The notes under the pieces are model-generated. The model was not told the origin of the DNA, ran no database searches, and worked only from the letters and a program-made list of their open reading frames with translations. From positions 1 through 33,087 of the forward strand of contig MGVS01000037.1 of assembly GCA_001800605.1 (NCBI GenBank): a DNA stretch of 33,087 bases. Direction: 5' to 3'. Source of the stretch: Elusimicrobia bacterium RIFOXYD2_FULL_34_15 (GTDB taxonomy: Bacteria > Elusimicrobiota > UBA8919). Position 1 is the first letter of the stretch. Every line of letters starts with the position of its first letter. A program made the translations under genes and the position numbers. Shown here one piece after another: positions 1,765 to 31,419 of this stretch.

Positions 1765-1868
1765 CAGTACACAGTAAACTGTACACAGAATACAGTTTAA
1801 AAAGAAGGCGTTTTTGATTTTAGCTGTATCCTGTGTGCTGTATTCTGTGAGCTGTATCCTGTGTACTG
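1765..1868 (+). repeat. Two opposed degenerate heptamer arrays forming a long inverted repeat in the trpG leader
   Basis: cagtacacag (1765-1774) pairs perfectly with ctgtgtactg (1859-1868); cacagaatacag (1784-1795) pairs perfectly with ctgtattctgtg (1838-1849). Right arm reads ctgtatc-ctgtgtg-ctgtatt-ctgtgag-ctgtatc-ctgtgta-ctg (period 7). Confidence 0.85.
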
Positions 1869-8104: not shown

Positions 8105-10603
8105 ATGTCATATGATTCCAAAACTATAGAACAAAAATGGCAGAAATACTGGGAAGAAAATAATCTTTTTAGATCCGGCGAAAAATCCGACAAAAAGAAG
8201 TTTTATCTGCTTGAAATGTTTCCGTATCCTTCTGGTAAACTTCATATGGGGCACGCCAGAAACTATGCAATCGGCGATACACTTGCTAGATTCCTCAGAA
8301 TGAATGATTACAATCTTTTATACCCGATGGGTTATGATGCATTCGGACTTCCTGCTGAGAATGCTGCAATAAAAAACAAAATTAATCCTGAAAAATGGAC
8401 TGACGAATGTATTAACACTATGAAGGAACAGCAGAAAAAATTAGGTCTTTCATACGACTGGAATCGCCTTGTTGTAACAGCAAAACCTGAATATTATAAA
8501 TGGAATCAGTGGATTTTTACCAAGTTTTTTGAAAAAGGGCTTGCATTTAAAAAACAGGCACCCACAAATTTTTGTCCCAAAGACCAGACGGTTCTAGCAA
8601 ATGAGCAGGTTATTGACGGAAAATGCTGGAGATGTCAAACAGAAGTTGAAGTAAAAGATCTTGAACAGTGGTTCTATAAAATTACCGATTATGCCGAAGA
8701 ACTATTAAAAGATATTGAAAAATTAACAGGCTGGCCTGAAAGAGTAAGAATCATGCAGCATAACTGGATCGGTAAATCCGATGGACTCTCGGTAAATTTT
8801 CCTGTAAAAAACTCGGATAAAAATATTGAAATTTTCACAACCCGGCCAGATACTCTTTTTGGCGTAACATTCATGACTTTTGCAGCGGAACATCCGCTCG
8901 TTATGGAATTAGTAAAAGGCACTGAAAAAGAAAAAGAAATAAAAGATTTCGTAAATAAAATTGTTATCCAAAAAAGAATTACACGGCTAGAAGAAAAAGA
9001 AAAAGAAGGGATATTTACCGGAAAATATGCAATCAACCCATTGACCGGCGATGAAATCCCTATATATGTCGGCAACTTTGTCTTAATGGAATATGGAACC
9101 GGAGCAATAATGTGCGTACCGGCCCATGACCAGCGAGACTTTGAATTTGCCAAGAAATATAATATCCCAATAAAAGAAGTCATCCAGCCCTTCGACTCCG
9201 CTCAGGGCAAGCCGCTATCCGCTGCTTTTGTCGAAGAAGGTACCATGGTCAATTCTCAGCAATTTAACGGTATTAATTCCAAAGATGCCATAGCAAAAAT
9301 CTCTGTTTATATTGAAGAAAAAAAATTTGGAAAAAGAGTTATACATTATAAATTGCGTGACTGGCTTATATCACGCCAACGGTACTGGGGAACTCCAATA
9401 CCGATAATTTACTGCGAAAAATGCGGGACAGTACCTGTACCTGAAAAAGACTTACCGGTATTACTGCCTAAAGATGTGGAATTTACCGGTGAAGGTAATC
9501 CTCTTTCAAAATCTTCAAGTTTTGTGAGTTGTAAATGCCCAAAATGCAACGCTCCGGCACGTCGTGAAACAGATACCATGGACACATTTGTTGATTCTTC
9601 ATGGTACTTCGAAAGATATTGCGATCCTAAGCAGGACAAGCTTCCTTTTAGCAAGGAAAAAGTATCTTACTGGATGCCGGTCAACCAATATATCGGCGGA
9701 ATAGAACACGCTGTTTTGCACCTTCTATATTCCAGATTCTACACGAAAGCATTGCGCGATTTAGGACTATTAAATTATGACGAACCTTTTCAAAATCTTT
9801 TATGTCAGGGGATGGTTGTAAAAGACGGTTTCAAAATGTCTAAATCTAAAGGAAACGTTGTCTCTGTAGATGATATGATAGATAAATATGGAGCAGACAC
9901 CGCCCGTTTATTTATTCTTTTTGCATCTCCGCCTGAACGCGACCTTGAATGGTCTGATGAAGGTGTCTTAGGCTGTTACAGATTTGTCAACAAAATCTGG
10001 AATTTGGTACAAGGGATACAGCAATTAAAAATTAAAAAACCTGTCCTGAACTTGTCGAAGGATGAAAAATTATCCGCCACTGAACCGTTTGCGGATCCGC
10101 CTAACACCAGTGGCGGAAAAAACTTGGAACGCATAAGAAATCTTACTATAAAAAAAGTTACGATAGATATCCAGAAAGAATTTCATTTCAATACTGCAAT
10201 TGCTTCTATAATGGAATTCTATAACGAACTTACCGCTAAACAATCTTCTGTAGATTACGAAACTTTTAAAATAAGCCTTGAGACGCTTATAATTCTACTG
10301 AGTCCTTTTGCACCGCATATTTGTGAAGAAATGTGGCAAGTTTTGGGACATAACGAGTCTATAATAAAGCAAAACTGGCCGAAATGGGATGAAGAGAAAC
10401 TTAAACAAAACGAAGTAACCATAGCTGTTCAAATTAATGGTAAATTACGCGGTCAAATAGATGTAAACATAGGATTATCTGAACAGGAAATTATGGAATT
10501 TGTCAAATCTAATGAAAAAATTCATAAATATATTATTAATAAAAAAATAATTAAAACTATCTATGTACCTCAAAAAATATTAAATATAGTAGTGGGAGGA
10601 TAG
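8105..10603 (+). CDS. leuS: Leucyl-tRNA synthetase
   Basis: 'YPSGKLHMGHARNY', 'DYNLLYPMGYDAFGLPAENAA', 'KMSKSKGN', 'NQYIGGIEHAVLHLLYSRF'. Confidence 0.97.
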   Translation: MSYDSKTIEQKWQKYWEENNLFRSGEKSDKKKFYLLEMFPYPSGKLHMGHARNYAIGDTLARFLRMNDYNLLYPMGYDAFGLPAENAAIKNKINPEKWTDECINTMKEQQKKLGLSYDWNRLVVTAKPEYYKWNQWIFTKFFEKGLAFKKQAPTNFCPKDQTVLANEQVIDGKCWRCQTEVEVKDLEQWFYKITDYAEELLKDIEKLTGWPERVRIMQHNWIGKSDGLSVNFPVKNSDKNIEIFTTRPDTLFGVTFMTFAAEHPLVMELVKGTEKEKEIKDFVNKIVIQKRITRLEEKEKEGIFTGKYAINPLTGDEIPIYVGNFVLMEYGTGAIMCVPAHDQRDFEFAKKYNIPIKEVIQPFDSAQGKPLSAAFVEEGTMVNSQQFNGINSKDAIAKISVYIEEKKFGKRVIHYKLRDWLISRQRYWGTPIPIIYCEKCGTVPVPEKDLPVLLPKDVEFTGEGNPLSKSSSFVSCKCPKCNAPARRETDTMDTFVDSSWYFERYCDPKQDKLPFSKEKVSYWMPVNQYIGGIEHAVLHLLYSRFYTKALRDLGLLNYDEPFQNLLCQGMVVKDGFKMSKSKGNVVSVDDMIDKYGADTARLFILFASPPERDLEWSDEGVLGCYRFVNKIWNLVQGIQQLKIKKPVLNLSKDEKLSATEPFADPPNTSGGKNLERIRNLTIKKVTIDIQKEFHFNTAIASIMEFYNELTAKQSSVDYETFKISLETLIILLSPFAPHICEEMWQVLGHNESIIKQNWPKWDEEKLKQNEVTIAVQINGKLRGQIDVNIGLSEQEIMEFVKSNEKIHKYIINKKIIKTIYVPQKILNIVVGG
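9188..9213 (+). repeat. In-frame repeat cccttcgactccgctcagggcaagcc within leuS (encodes PFDSAQGKP)
   Basis: GC-rich word, compositionally distinct from the gene, at a LeuS editing-domain loop where homologues differ. Confidence 0.6.
10040..10117 (+). repeat. In-frame composite repeat in leuS: cctgtcctgaacttgtcgaagga plus a 45-bp palindromic element
   Basis: 10073-10117 tccgccactg...gcggatccgc...cagtggcgga (45 nt), homologous to elements at 30532-30578 and 26636-26685. Confidence 0.75.
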
Positions 10604-10604
10604 T

Positions 10605-11357
10605 ATGATAAATATTTGCCGTAAAGCAGTTTCTAAGTTGTTTAAATCTTTCTTATCTTTTACCAAGCCTGTCCTGCCGCCTATGGCGAGCCTCGCCCCT
10701 TTGGGGCGGGGGCGTGCGAAAATAGTCGAAGGATTACCCATTACTCGTTACTCGTTACCCGTTACCCATCACCCGTTACTGTCGTTCGTTACCCGTTACT
10801 CGTTACCCAGCCTGTCCCGATTCTTCGGGATTACTTTATTATTTTTTATCGGTTGTGCATCCCCGTATAAACCAACAACACAGGTACTTCCCCAGAATAT
10901 CAAAAAAGTTTCAATAGAAACTTTTAAAAACTCTACGGTATATTACGGCATTGAAGATAAACTTACTACAGCAGTTACAAACGAGTTTATACGTGACGGG
11001 CGGCTCGCCGTTGTAAATCCCGACGAAGCAGACGGTGTTTTATTTGGCGAAATAACAAGATATGTTTTGGAACCATTGACATATGACGAGAACCATGTTG
11101 TTAAAGAATATAAACTTTGGATATTGGTCAATATTTCTCTTATAGATAAAGCAAGAAAAGTTGTATTGTGGCAGGAAAAAAATCTTGAGGGCAATTACAG
11201 ATTTTTTATCGCAAATTTACCCGGAGGAACTACGGAAGAAGAAGCCAGGGAAATAATTTGGGATAAGCTATCCAGAAATATTTTAAAAAGAACAATTGAA
11301 GGCTTTGGCGCCGTCTCGGGTATAAGTGAAAAAAAAGTCCCGCCTAAAACGGAATAA
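10605..11357 (+). CDS. lptE: LPS-assembly lipoprotein LptE-like, N-terminus interrupted by repeat DNA
   Basis: Lipobox 'LLFFIGCASP', 'VSIETFKNSTVYYGIEDKLTTAVTNEFIRDGRL'; leuS-lptE-holA synteny; SD 'gggagga'. Confidence 0.75.
   Translation: MINICRKAVSKLFKSFLSFTKPVLPPMASLAPLGRGRAKIVEGLPITRYSLPVTHHPLLSFVTRYSLPSLSRFFGITLLFFIGCASPYKPTTQVLPQNIKKVSIETFKNSTVYYGIEDKLTTAVTNEFIRDGRLAVVNPDEADGVLFGEITRYVLEPLTYDENHVVKEYKLWILVNISLIDKARKVVLWQEKNLEGNYRFFIANLPGGTTEEEAREIIWDKLSRNILKRTIEGFGAVSGISEKKVPPKTE
10664..10832 (+). repeat. Composite in-frame repeat insertion in lptE with a cgttacc heptamer array
   Basis: cgcccc-ttt-ggggcg hairpin, 'agtcgaagga', then cgttact/cgttacc/cgttacc/catcacc/cgttact... (about 10733-10808), then tgtcccgattcttcgggatta palindrome. 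Confidence 0.8.
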
Positions 11358-11368
11358 CCTCATAAGAA

Positions 11369-11396
11369 TAACGAGTAACGGGTAATGGGTAACGAA
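11369..11396 (+). repeat. Heptamer array gtaacgg/gtaatgg, opposite orientation to the array in lptE
   Basis: aacgagtaacgggtaatgggtaacgaag. Confidence 0.8.
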
Positions 11397-12772: not shown

Positions 12773-14340
12773 GCGAAAATTTTAAAAAAGAATCTAAAGT
12801 AACAAAATATATCGGCTATGTTCTAACCGGAACAATGTTTTCCCGTATACTTGGCTATCTTCGCGATATGCTGGTCGGTTGGCTTTTCGGTGCCGGACTG
12901 TATGCCGATGCATTTTATGCCGCCCAGAGAATTCCTAATCTTTTCAGGCGTTTATTAGGCGAAGGCTCATTATCCTCGTCTTTTGTACCTGTATTTACCG
13001 ATTATATATCTACAAAAGATGAAGAAGAATCCAAAAAGCTTTTTAGTGTGGTTTTCACAACTCTTCTCTTTACTCTTTTGGTTGTAACTCTAATAGGTAT
13101 TGTCTTCGCTCCGCAGTTAACTAGAATTATTGCGTATGGATTTGAAAAAAATCCCGACAAACTTGCATTAACCATATCTTTAACACGTCTTATGTTTCCG
13201 GCTTTGCTTTTTGCGTGTATAGCAGCATTTCTTCTTGCTGTACTAAACTCTCTTAAATCGTTTTTTATACCCGCAGTATCTCCTGCTGTACTTTCCGTTG
13301 CCGAAATTGTTTTCATTCTTGGTATCGCCCGGTTTATTTTAAAAGAAAGTCAAATTAAAGGTTTAGCAATAGCGGTATTGGTCGGCGGATTATTACAATT
13401 CTTAATTATGATGCCATCAATTAAGAAACATGGGTTTTCGTTTAAACCAATTTTGAACTTTAATCATCCGGGACTTAAACAAATATTTTATTTAATGATA
13501 CCGGCAATGTGGGGAATATCTATTGACCAGGTAAATGCTTTTATTGATACAATATTTGCTTCCTTTCTAAAAGAAGGCAGTGTAACTGCACTTTATTATT
13601 CGAACCGGGTGATGCAGCTTCCGCTTGCTCTTTTCGGCATTGCTGTGGCTTCAGTATCATTACCTTTAATGTCAGCAAGTGTTTCCAAAAAAAATATAGA
13701 TGATATGAAAGATATGCTTGCATTTTCAATTAAAATATCATCGCTTGCTATTTTTCCTTCACTTATGGGATTAATAATTCTTGGTAAACCAATGATAAAA
13801 CTTCTATTCGAACATGGAAGATTTGATTCCAATGCAACTTTAATTACAAATTCTGCATTATTTTTTTATGCTTTAGGCCTGCCGGCGTTTGGATATGTAA
13901 AAATTTTTGCCGGAGGGTTTTATTCACTTAAAGAAACTAGAATTCCTGTGAAAGTCGCTACATTATGCATGATAACAAATGTTTTTCTAAATGCGATACT
14001 AATGCGTCCTTTAGGTGTAGGCGGACTTGCACTTGCAACTTCGATATCGTCATGGCTTAATGCTTCTCTTCTTTATATGTTTCTTAGAAAAAGAATCGGA
14101 AGTTTTGGAAGCAGAAAAATATTTTTCTCGCTTGTAAAAATAACTGTTGCTACTTTGACAATGGGTTTAGTATGTTATATTTTGTCTAATTATGTTTTCA
14201 GCAGCTTGGCATTAAATGTATTCGGAACGATAATTATAAGTTTTCTAACATATTTATTTATGACAAAGTTATTAAAAATTAAAGAAATGAAATCGGTTAT
14301 GTCTGTTTTAAAAAGGGAAGAACCAACCATAGATGAATGA
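12766..14340 (+). CDS. murJ: Lipid II flippase MurJ (MviN family)
   Basis: 'GTMFSRILGYLRDMLVGWLFGAGLYADAFYAAQRIPNLFRRLLGEGSLSSSFVPVFTDY'. Confidence 0.95.
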   Translation: MSSENFKKESKVTKYIGYVLTGTMFSRILGYLRDMLVGWLFGAGLYADAFYAAQRIPNLFRRLLGEGSLSSSFVPVFTDYISTKDEEESKKLFSVVFTTLLFTLLVVTLIGIVFAPQLTRIIAYGFEKNPDKLALTISLTRLMFPALLFACIAAFLLAVLNSLKSFFIPAVSPAVLSVAEIVFILGIARFILKESQIKGLAIAVLVGGLLQFLIMMPSIKKHGFSFKPILNFNHPGLKQIFYLMIPAMWGISIDQVNAFIDTIFASFLKEGSVTALYYSNRVMQLPLALFGIAVASVSLPLMSASVSKKNIDDMKDMLAFSIKISSLAIFPSLMGLIILGKPMIKLLFEHGRFDSNATLITNSALFFYALGLPAFGYVKIFAGGFYSLKETRIPVKVATLCMITNVFLNAILMRPLGVGGLALATSISSWLNASLLYMFLRKRIGSFGSRKIFFSLVKITVATLTMGLVCYILSNYVFSSLALNVFGTIIISFLTYLFMTKLLKIKEMKSVMSVLKREEPTIDE

Positions 14341-16348
14341 TTTTTTAAACCAAAAGTTGAAAAACTTGCCAAACCATCCCGGTGTCTATATAATGCGAGA
14401 CGCTTCAAGTAAAATAATATACATTGGTAAAGCAACATCCCTAAAATCCCGCGTAAAATCATACTTTGTTGAAAACATAAAAGATTTCAAAAATACATTT
14501 CTTGTAAAAACAGTCAGAAACATAGAATATATTCTTACAGAAAATGAGAAAGAAGCTTCTATCCTTGAAGAAGCTCTAATAAAACGTTTTCAACCGAAAT
14601 ATAACATAATCTGGAAAGACGACAAACGATATCCGTACATTAAAATCGGAAAAGAAAAATTTCCTGCGATAGAAGTAGTACGTATAAAAAAATCTGACGG
14701 AGCTAAATATTTTGGTCCATATCCGGACTCCACAGATATGCAAAAAACACTAAAATTAGTTAAAAGGATTTTTGGTTTACGCCCTTGTCAATATAATTTA
14801 ACCAAAAGAAAAAAAGAATGTCTGTATTATTTTATAAATAAATGCCCTGCACCTTGCATTGGAAAAGCTAACGAAGAAGAATATGTAAATATGATAGACA
14901 AAGTAAAAATGTTCTTATCCGGCAAAAACAAAGAATTGTTAAGAGCTCTTGAAAAAGAAATGAACATTTCAAAAAAATATCTTGATTTTGAAAGCGCAGC
15001 TAAGTTAAGAAATATTATCTTTGCAATAAAAAACACTCTAACCCGCGTAAATTTCAAGGAAACAACTATTGATAACATATTAATGAATATTGATAGGGCT
15101 TCGTATATTTCAGATTTATCAAAATTGTTAAATTCTAATGTTAACCGGATTGAAGGTTTTGATATCTCCAATATTTCAGGAAAATTTGCGGTAGGTTCCC
15201 TGGTTGTATTCACAAACGGATTCCCTGATAAAAAAGAATACAGAAAATTTAAAATTAAAACTGTTAAAAAAATAGATGATTTTAAAATGATTTTTGAAGT
15301 TATTAACCGACGTTACTCCGGTACTCTTGTTAAAAAGACTCCTATGCCGGATATGATACTTATAGACGGCGGAAAAGGCCAGCTTTCCTCCGCGATATCA
15401 GCATTGGAAAAAATTCCAAACATAGAAAAAATGCCTAAGGTTATTTCAATTGCCAAAAAAAATGAGGAATTGTTTGTTACGGGAAATCCTAAACCAATAA
15501 TTTTATCTAAAAATTCTTTAGCTTTAAACCTTATAAAACATATAAGGGATGAAGCCCATAGATTTGCAATATCATACCATAAACTACTGAGAAAAAATCT
15601 TTTCATAGCTTTTATAATATTTATTTCTACATTACAGCTCTTTTCAAAAGAAGGCACAATTTATCTAAAAAATGGAAAAACAATTGCAGGAGATATTACC
15701 AAGCTCGAGAACGGAAATTTACTGGTTGAAGTTAATAATTGCGGGATGGAATTTACAAACAAAGAAATAAAAAATATTGCGTATTCCAAAAACAAAGAAC
15801 AAAAAGAAGAAAACTTTTTACAAAAAATGAAAAACACTCAGAAGGCACAAGTTAAAGAAAAAATAAGAAATAGAAGATATGCATATGACCCCTTAATATA
15901 CACTTATGCAGATAAATACGGATTGGATCCGTCTTTTGTAAAAGCAGTTATAGAAGCAGAATCAAATTTTAATCAAGATGATGTTTCTTGGAAAGGGGCT
16001 ATAGGTTTAATGCAACTTATGCCTAAAACTGCAAAACAAATGAAGCTTAATCCAAACAATATAGAAGATAACATCAAAGGCGGCACACAATATTTGAATT
16101 ATATGTTATTGGAATTCGGAGATCCATCACTTGCACTTGCCGGTTACAATGCCGGTCCATATGCTGTAAAAAAATACGGCAACCAAATACCGCCATACAA
16201 GGAAACCAAAAATTATGTTGATACAGTCTTAAGAAATTATATAAAACATAAGCGGGATAAACAACTCTGGTATTTTGTTGATGAAAAGGGCTGCATTAAA
16301 ATCTCCGACAAACCAAAAGATAGAAGGTATAAGAGAGTTGAGAAGTGA
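14333..16348 (+). CDS. Chimeric ORF: UvrC-like excinuclease (GIY-YIG, UVR, RNase H-like) fused to an SLT-type lytic transglycosylase
   Basis: N-term 'LPNHPGVYIMRDASSKIIYIGKATSLKSRVKSYF' and 'EGFDISNISG...MILIDGGKGQLSSA...HIRDEAHRFAISYHK' (UvrC). From about 15587, 'LRKNLFIAFIIFISTLQLFS' (signal peptide-like), then 'YADKYGLDPSFVKAVIEAESNFNQDDVSWKGAIGLMQLMPKTA...AGYNAGPYAV' (SLT). Confidence 0.85.
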   Translation: MNDFLNQKLKNLPNHPGVYIMRDASSKIIYIGKATSLKSRVKSYFVENIKDFKNTFLVKTVRNIEYILTENEKEASILEEALIKRFQPKYNIIWKDDKRYPYIKIGKEKFPAIEVVRIKKSDGAKYFGPYPDSTDMQKTLKLVKRIFGLRPCQYNLTKRKKECLYYFINKCPAPCIGKANEEEYVNMIDKVKMFLSGKNKELLRALEKEMNISKKYLDFESAAKLRNIIFAIKNTLTRVNFKETTIDNILMNIDRASYISDLSKLLNSNVNRIEGFDISNISGKFAVGSLVVFTNGFPDKKEYRKFKIKTVKKIDDFKMIFEVINRRYSGTLVKKTPMPDMILIDGGKGQLSSAISALEKIPNIEKMPKVISIAKKNEELFVTGNPKPIILSKNSLALNLIKHIRDEAHRFAISYHKLLRKNLFIAFIIFISTLQLFSKEGTIYLKNGKTIAGDITKLENGNLLVEVNNCGMEFTNKEIKNIAYSKNKEQKEENFLQKMKNTQKAQVKEKIRNRRYAYDPLIYTYADKYGLDPSFVKAVIEAESNFNQDDVSWKGAIGLMQLMPKTAKQMKLNPNNIEDNIKGGTQYLNYMLLEFGDPSLALAGYNAGPYAVKKYGNQIPPYKETKNYVDTVLRNYIKHKRDKQLWYFVDEKGCIKISDKPKDRRYKRVEK

Positions 16349-29880: not shown

Positions 29881-31419
29881 ATGAAAAAAATATTTTTATG
29901 TTTATTATCGTCGTTACTCCTTCTTTTATCTTTTCCTAAAATATCATTTTGGCCATTAGCATGGATTTCACTTGTACCTCTCTTATCAGTAATATCAAAT
30001 GAAAAACCTTTAAAAGCATTTCTATACGGAATTTTAACAGGAATTGTTTTTTATTGCGGAATTTTATATTGGATAGTTCCAACTTTTTCTGCCGCCGGCG
30101 AACCAAATATTATCGGCATTCTTGTTCTCCTTTTATTGGCAATATATTCAGCATTATATTATGGAATTTTCTGTCTGTTCTATTCTAAAAACTTCAAACA
30201 CAGTTTGATACTGCCGGCTTTCTTATGGGTTTCTTTAGAACTTATTCGCACTCATTTATTCTCAGGTTTTCCGTGGGCATCATTGGGATATTCCCAATGG
30301 AATTTCTTACCTATAATACAGATTTCCGAATTCACAGGCGTATATGGAGTATCTTTTTTAATAATATTGGTGAATGTTATATTAGTACACAGTATACAGT
30401 ATACAGTATACAGTTTAAAAGATATAGGAAACAAGACACAGCACACTAGATTCAGGATTCAGAATAATATTACAACAGCATTAATTGTTCTTTTTTGTTT
30501 AGGATTTGGTGCCATTAAACTCTATAACCCTTCCGCCACTACTTCTTTGGCGGACCCGCCAACAACTCAGTGGCGGGATAACCCAAGAATTGTCACAATT
30601 GTTCAAGGTAATATTGACCAATATAAAAAATGGGATGAAAAATATCAACAAGAAATCGAAAACATTTATTCCGAGCTTTCCGTTTCGAACTCAAAAAATT
30701 CAGATTTAATAGTTTGGCCGGAATCTTCAATACCTGGATTTTTAAGAATCGATCCAAAAATCTATAACTGGATCAAAGAACTCGCAAATAAAACTAAAAC
30801 ACAGTATTTAGTATCCTCAAATGATTTTAAAGACAATAAATATTATAATTCTGCATTTCTAATATCCAAGCAAGGCGAAGTTATTGGTGAATATTCAAAA
30901 GTCCATCTTGTCCCATTTGGAGAATATGTACCTTTAAGAAAAACAATTAGTAAATTTATTAAAGTAATTAATGAAATAGGTGAATTTGCTCCCGGAGAAA
31001 AATATAATGCTCTTGATTCTTCTGCAGGCAAACTTGGAGTGAATATCTGTTTTGAATCTATATTTCCAAATGAAATTAGAAAATCAATAAATTCAGGAGC
31101 AGAAATCATTGTTAATGTAACAAATGACGCATGGTATCTTAAAACATCCGCACCTTACCAGCACTTTACAATGAACATTTTTAGGGCTGTAGAAAATAGA
31201 AGGGAAGTAGTAAGAGCTGCAAATACCGGAATCTCAGGCTTTATTGATTCTTATGGTAGAATAAAATCAAAAACTGAAATATTCAGAACTGCAGCACTAT
31301 CGGATAAAATAATACCATTAAATCATATTACCTTTTATACAAAATATGGTGATATTTTTTCTTATTTATGCCTGTCAATAACAATATTATTTCTTATCAT
31401 ATTTTTCTTCAAACCTTAA
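29881..31419 (+). CDS. lnt: Apolipoprotein N-acyltransferase
   Basis: 'LSFPKISFWPLAWISLVPLL', 'SGFPWASLGYSQW', nitrilase-domain motifs 'WPESSIPG', 'SKVHLVPFGEYVPLR', 'NICFESIFP'. ATG at 29881 preferred over TTG 29875. Confidence 0.92.
   Translation: MKKIFLCLLSSLLLLLSFPKISFWPLAWISLVPLLSVISNEKPLKAFLYGILTGIVFYCGILYWIVPTFSAAGEPNIIGILVLLLLAIYSALYYGIFCLFYSKNFKHSLILPAFLWVSLELIRTHLFSGFPWASLGYSQWNFLPIIQISEFTGVYGVSFLIILVNVILVHSIQYTVYSLKDIGNKTQHTRFRIQNNITTALIVLFCLGFGAIKLYNPSATTSLADPPTTQWRDNPRIVTIVQGNIDQYKKWDEKYQQEIENIYSELSVSNSKNSDLIVWPESSIPGFLRIDPKIYNWIKELANKTKTQYLVSSNDFKDNKYYNSAFLISKQGEVIGEYSKVHLVPFGEYVPLRKTISKFIKVINEIGEFAPGEKYNALDSSAGKLGVNICFESIFPNEIRKSINSGAEIIVNVTNDAWYLKTSAPYQHFTMNIFRAVENRREVVRAANTGISGFIDSYGRIKSKTEIFRTAALSDKIIPLNHITFYTKYGDIFSYLCLSITILFLIIFFFKP
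30384..30466 (+). repeat. In-frame cagtata heptamer array inside lnt
   Basis: agtaca-cagtata-cagtata-cagtata-cagttt (30384-30416), then acacagc-acactag-attcagg-attcaga (about 30435-30466). Confidence 0.85.
30532..30578 (+). repeat. In-frame palindromic element inside lnt
   Basis: tccgccactacttctttggcggacccgccaacaactcagtggcggga, same architecture as the leuS 45-bp element. Confidence 0.8.

Follow-up and report, generated by a model that had tools for sequence, protein, structure and literature searches.

The signal peptide of LptE in the window (the whole 33,087-nt stretch analysed, contig C37 of a 2.47-Mb assembly, G000, a metagenome-assembled genome of 119 contigs) appears to carry an in-frame composite insertion of repeat DNA, as supported by comparison with a relative of the same genus (G001). 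In the reading that we favour, with a probability of roughly three in four, a composite of dispersed repeats occupies an older heptamer site in this signal peptide and is tolerated there as in a safe harbour. A palindrome (module A), GTTACCC heptamers (module B) and a second palindrome (module C) would have come into a pre-existing heptamer site, in frame and oriented in the one way that can be translated; the pre-protein would thereby have gained a long, basic, proline-rich extension between the old n-region and a new h-region (FFGITLLFFIG), with the lipobox unchanged. Removal of the entire extension by signal peptidase II would leave mature LptE unaffected. Signal peptides are hydrophobic, show little conservation and are cut off from the mature protein, and for this last reason an insertion into one would be cheap. 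In this Elusimicrobia family, pyrimidine-rich heptamer arrays often make up the signal peptide, which probably left the lptE site vulnerable. The nesting order of the modules and the way in which the elements move are matters that we infer. More generally, bacterial export signals could both shelter repetitive DNA and arise from it, with simple repeats renewing signal peptides and dispersed elements lodging in them while the mature protein stays unchanged.

The lptE gene and its repeat-derived block

lptE (10605..11357, + strand) lies directly after leuS on the contig and encodes an LPS-assembly lipoprotein of 250 aa, with an 83-residue pre-sequence before the lipobox Cys. Both the PF04390 domain (matched at residues 100-229, E 1.3e-11) and the lipobox Cys are present, marking the product as an LptE lipoprotein, and orthologues were found in 60/60 genomes searched. 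The native n-region codons (10605..10664, +) end in TATCTTTTACC, which is also present in G001, and the predicted lipidated Cys (+1; 10854..10856, +) aligns with that of G001, where only 29 residues precede it. Mature LptE is 93% identical between the two (dN 0.041, dS 1.18; dN/dS about 0.035) and, by these substitution rates, is evidently under purifying selection.

The N-terminal sequence and translation quoted in the earlier note were borne out on re-reading the window. Its extent for the composite repeat (10605-10860) was too generous, also spanning the native n-region and lipobox; the novel block is confined to 10665..10844 (+), 180 nt that replace 11 nt of G001 right after TATCTTTTACC. 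The window has 60 nt from the ATG through TATCTTTTACC, followed by 180 nt up to TTTATCGGTTGT, and G001 has 67 nt through the same TATCTTTTACC, followed by 11 nt (TTTTACCTTTG). The net difference of 162 nt (54 codons) agrees with the earlier figure of about 50 codons inserted in frame. These boundaries were set by hand from both sequences, as MAFFT global alignment of the 5′ ends misplaced the block. Among the relatives aligned, no orthologue with the long N-terminus of the window was found. The h-region of G001 at the insertion site is not blank, however, consisting of two TTTTACC heptamers, and one end of the block coincides with a TTTTACC unit; since no true empty site exists, insertion and replacement are not fully separable. 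The ‘rejoined’ ancestor of the earlier proposal is thus not blank, since relatives carry other heptamers there. The interpretation as an insertion stands, and is incomplete in that relatives already have a heptamer array at this site.

All the main modules of the block have copies dispersed in the genome, as had been expected from its palindromes and heptamers, and a search of the block against its own genome gave 43 matches, its own included; the right border, TTTATTATT, is without an assigned repeat. Module A (10666..10736, +) is a ~70-bp GC-rich palindromic element (AGCCTGTCCTGCCGCC...CGCCCCTTTGGGGCGGG...AGTCGAAGGATTA) with about 10 other well-covered genome copies (81-94% identity). Most of these are without an open frame through them, and that in lptE is the only one in frame in a gene; several others carry stops in the frame that lptE uses, and the lptE copy is therefore one that is translatable. 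One of the copies of module A is located in the RNase P RNA gene, in its 5′ part (L063; G000:C78:19658-19723; RF00010, 232 bits). Module B (10733..10774, +) is a GTTACCC/GTTACTC heptamer array (period-7 score 20), with a second stretch of GTTACCC heptamers (module B′) at 10786..10805 (+), and the 12-mer GTTACCCGTTAC has 45 exact occurrences in 2.47 Mb, compared with 1 for a reversed control pattern. Module C (10809..10833, +; ~25 bp) is a TCCCGA/TCGGGA palindrome (AGCCTGTCCCGATTCTTCGGGATTA; pattern AGCCTGTCC CGA..TCG GGATTA) that encodes part of the h-region and lipobox segment (FFGITLLFFIG; 10821..10853, +), and about ten similar copies were identified, several embedded in a TTACCC...ACCCGTTAC heptamer context. 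Modules A and C have common ends (AGCCTGTCC...GGATTA), and module C, like module A at several loci, is flanked by GTTACCC heptamers. Palindromes with common ends in a heptamer context elsewhere make the composite a recurring arrangement, not one unique to lptE. Just 3′ of lptE, at 11369..11392 (+), is a reverse-orientation heptamer array (TAACGAGTAACGGGTAATGGGTAA), 96% complementary to 10734-10757.

Repeats typically cause misassembly, and this is a metagenome-assembled genome of 119 contigs without reads, so that repeats could in principle have been mis-joined here. Such a local assembly error is very improbable: the flanks on both sides come from a single orthologous gene and keep its order and frame, the block measures only 180 nt, the A+B arrangement is also present at contig C89 with different flanks, and comparable composite insertions are found in other signal peptides.

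Start site and translation of the block

The lptE ATG, its GGGAGG Shine-Dalgarno sequence (10594..10599, +; within the last leuS codons) and the overlap with the end of leuS are common to the window and G001, the GGGAGG being the same in both sequence and position. Two of the three forward frames of the block are without stops and each reverse frame has 3-6, leaving the forward orientation alone open; in the lptE frame the block is stop-free across 60 codons. If translation began inside or after the block, the insertion would in effect be a change of the 5′ leader, and an in-frame ATG (10683) and CTG (10812, immediately 5′ of the SRFFGITLLFFIGC codons) are available, with the G+C-rich palindrome placed in early mRNA. 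We consider this unlikely. Internal starts are without a Shine-Dalgarno-like sequence (none in the 18 nt 5′ of TTG 10638, ATG 10683 or TTG 10701, the other in-frame start codons of the pre-sequence), while the start at 10605 has a conserved GGGAGG and is coupled to leuS. The 60 stop-free codons also argue for translation, although the same frame is stopped in several other copies of module A. Folding at the 5′ end of the lptE mRNA was no stronger than in shuffled sequences (z 0.10), and mRNA structure was rejected as a function of the block. A downstream start excluding the repeat had been named as a test of the earlier interpretation, and no plausible candidate was found. The favoured reading, a translated composite within the signal peptide, implies that the 83-residue pre-sequence probably still functions as a lipoprotein signal in export, lipidation and cleavage. 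For annotation, this advises caution, as such N-termini are probably real coding sequence and not wrong starts.

Elsewhere in the window (1765-1868), an inverted pair of CAGTAYAC-type heptamer arrays just 5′ of trpG lengthens the mechanical trpG ORF upstream by MILAVSCVLYSVSCILC, which probably does not reflect the true start.

Heptamer arrays in signal peptides and genomes

The LptE signal peptides of relatives consist of tandem heptamers, with a unit that differs in nearly every species: TTTTACC in G001, CGGAAGT then ACTTACT in G004, GTTCAGA then TTTTACC in G006, GGAAGTG then ACTTACT in G007, an octamer (AAGTGGTT) then ACTATTC in G005, TTATTTC in G002, ATTTGTC in G003 and GGTTATT in G011, a member of another family. 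Mature LptE of G004 and that of G006 are 95% identical and yet the array units differ in both slots, which indicates fast turnover with the mature protein and frame kept.

Array statistics were obtained from stretches of 40-430 kb per genome, with 76 kb pooled for three distant genomes; the genomes were metagenome-assembled, without reads, and the survey assigned ORF starts by a simple Shine-Dalgarno rule. Among array periods, 7 predominates in the repeat-rich genomes. G000 has 32 period-7 arrays in 305 kb, compared with 0-4 for each other period (4-12) and 0 in shuffles, G004 has 76 in 302 kb (period 8 next, 13) and G005 has 98 in 430 kb (period 8 next, 35). G001 is almost without arrays (6 of period 7 and 7 of period 8 in 242 kb), and no period-7 arrays were found in the 76 kb from three distant Elusimicrobia. 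Over all sampled stretches, array density reaches 30.5 per 100 kb within the initial 120 nt of ORFs, against 7.1 in mid-gene stretches (a 4.3-fold difference) and 3.4 in the last 120 nt. An array is present in 17/45 lipoprotein-like signals, compared with 2/45 equal stretches after the Cys, although 6 of the 17 are LptE orthologues and hydrophobic arrays themselves make it easier to pass the lipoprotein-like filter. Array-bearing signal peptides front a cyclophilin, a FliG-like protein, YibE/F, CsgG, a solute-binding protein, an M23 peptidase and a lytic transglycosylase; for the cyclophilin and the FliG-like protein, orthologues have a different unit or no array. A CsgG-family query for further orthologous signal peptides was set aside, the family being too large for clean orthology. 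In the FliG-like secreted protein of G000 (L152; G000:C3:18751-20304, upstream part), palindromic repeats are in frame in the signal peptide, a second case like lptE, where an internal ATG could serve as the start. Events like that in lptE, which the earlier note treated singly, are thus also seen in further signal peptides and genes.

The position of these arrays can be related to frame arithmetic. As 7 = 1 mod 3, three successive units cover all three frames and give one heptapeptide in any frame. Repeats of the pyrimidine-rich strand are mostly stop-free and hydrophobic (FYLLPFT, TYYLLLT, LFLISYF, VTRYPLP), except that a perfect AATTTTT array has a stop and the coding copies seen use a C-substituted unit. 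The opposite (purine) strand usually contains TAA. An array near a gene start is thus a ready h-region in any frame, as the pyrimidine strand is open, and a reversed array is usually a stop in any frame, which fits the strand bias near starts and stops: intergenic arrays beside a start are pyrimidine-rich on the sense strand in a ratio of 20:11, and those behind a stop are purine-rich on the sense strand in a ratio of 41:17. The window fits this bias, with its purine-strand array directly behind lptE. In this Elusimicrobia family, pyrimidine-rich arrays would be tolerated and turn over as h-regions because the same hydrophobic heptapeptide, without a stop, is read in every frame; the 7-nt unit set against the 3-nt code would then be an arithmetic reason for the survival of heptamers in genes.

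In the sampled stretches, neighbouring arrays within 60 nt are mainly in purine-then-pyrimidine order (34 RY, 1 YR, 8 RR, 5 YY; loci including L025, L034, L033, L116, L118 and L126), and R units differ less from the reverse complement of the paired Y unit (mean 1.94/7 mismatches) than they do in within-genome shuffles (2.64; P 0.0005). This pairing suggests a paired, hairpin-like unit of spread. A broader reading, for and against which we regard the case as evenly balanced, is that heptamer microsatellites act as frame-independent signal-peptide cassettes, with paired purine/pyrimidine arrays recurring in this lineage as an interchangeable source of h-regions in which nested palindromes are tolerated. 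Heptamer arrays would in that event offer a testable route to new export signals. Text searches of a literature made up mainly of open papers, and so weak evidence, turned up no account in which heptamer arrays serve as interchangeable signal peptides.

Many genes for secreted proteins have 7-nt units at their 5′ end, and these could alternatively be contingency loci, in which slippage by a single unit would alter the frame and turn LptE and other secreted proteins on or off; enrichment of simple sequence repeats (SSR) near N-termini has been linked to phase variation (Lin and Kussell, as cited in a passage of PMC4692102). Switching of this kind is highly unlikely here, as the arrays are short (about 3-5 units) and often imperfect, as they are in the window, lptE belongs to the core genes and its reading frame is intact in every orthologue whose N-terminus was read, and arrays are also found inside UvrB and in the middle of LeuS, where switching would be senseless. 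Arrays kept as tolerated h-regions remain the preferred account.

Known repeat systems and other repeat-derived segments

The nearest known counterparts are Rickettsia palindromic elements (RPE) and the cyanobacterial composites of heptamers and small dispersed repeats. RPEs are small dispersed palindromes that occur in frame in genes for conserved proteins as well as in RNase P RNA (PMC2229807, PMC10969869). The composite in lptE resembles them in placing a palindromic element in frame in a conserved gene, by comparison with G001, and module A is likewise found in RNase P RNA. It differs, on a comparison by description and not by sequence, in that RPEs are 105-146 bp with terminal inverted repeats, whereas module A is ~70 bp and module C ~25 bp; RPEs have many in-gene copies, whereas well-covered module A is in frame in lptE only; and the target here is a signal peptide, with heptamer arrays belonging to the composite. 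In cyanobacteria (Nostoc), small dispersed repeats (SDR) embedded in tandem heptamers (STRR) were reportedly described by Elhai in 2008. Genome-dispersed tandem heptamers with nested short palindromes (module C, and module A at several loci) and the excess of period-7 arrays over other periods in G000, G004 and G005 are similar; this likeness is again one of description, not sequence, and the phylum is different, with arrays that here repeatedly encode signal peptides, as purine-then-pyrimidine pairs.

Heptamers are also a favoured class of long SSR, strand-biased near genes, in Xanthomonas, Nostoc and Beggiatoaceae (TAACTGA) (PMC4692102, PMC4679880). Those systems share with ours a dispersed 7-nt unit close to the starts and stops of genes, with the pyrimidine sense before genes and the purine sense after, but are described as having a single main unit family in each genome, which lies mostly between genes and is under-represented on the sense strand of coding regions, whereas the Elusimicrobia arrays have many unit families and frequent in-frame coding use. 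GC-rich palindromes also recall REP/BIME elements with RAYT (Y1) transposases. G000 has five matches to Y1_Tnp (PF01797; on C64, C38, C1, C87 and C68), possibly RAYT-like proteins, with no association with the palindromes implied.

Other repeat-derived segments were seen in the window and in one relative. LeuS (8105-10603) contains two in-frame repeat-derived inserts, the FDSAQGKP loop and PVLNLSKDEKLSATEPFADPPNTSGGK, and relatives carry other, unrelated inserts at both sites, in part heptamer arrays. A short related element (CCTGTCCTGAACTTGTCGAAGGATG; 10041..10065, +) is in frame in leuS, in a loop that varies among relatives. In Lnt, an in-frame AGTATAC heptamer array (window 30384-30414), absent from G001, encodes HSIQYTVYSL. 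At G006 loci L185-L194, a lipoprotein-like N-terminus (MKKFFGFDVIARTKDEAISSLRLPRANKLALAMTLCVASYFLLFTSC) appears to contain another dispersed repeat in frame. Separately, at 14333-16348 of the window, a single ORF joins UvrC (GIY-YIG and RNase H-like) to a lytic transglycosylase (SLT) part that has its own hydrophobic segment; G005 and G008 align across this fusion, and in G002, G003 and G004 the two parts match separately, 0.1-1.2 kb apart.
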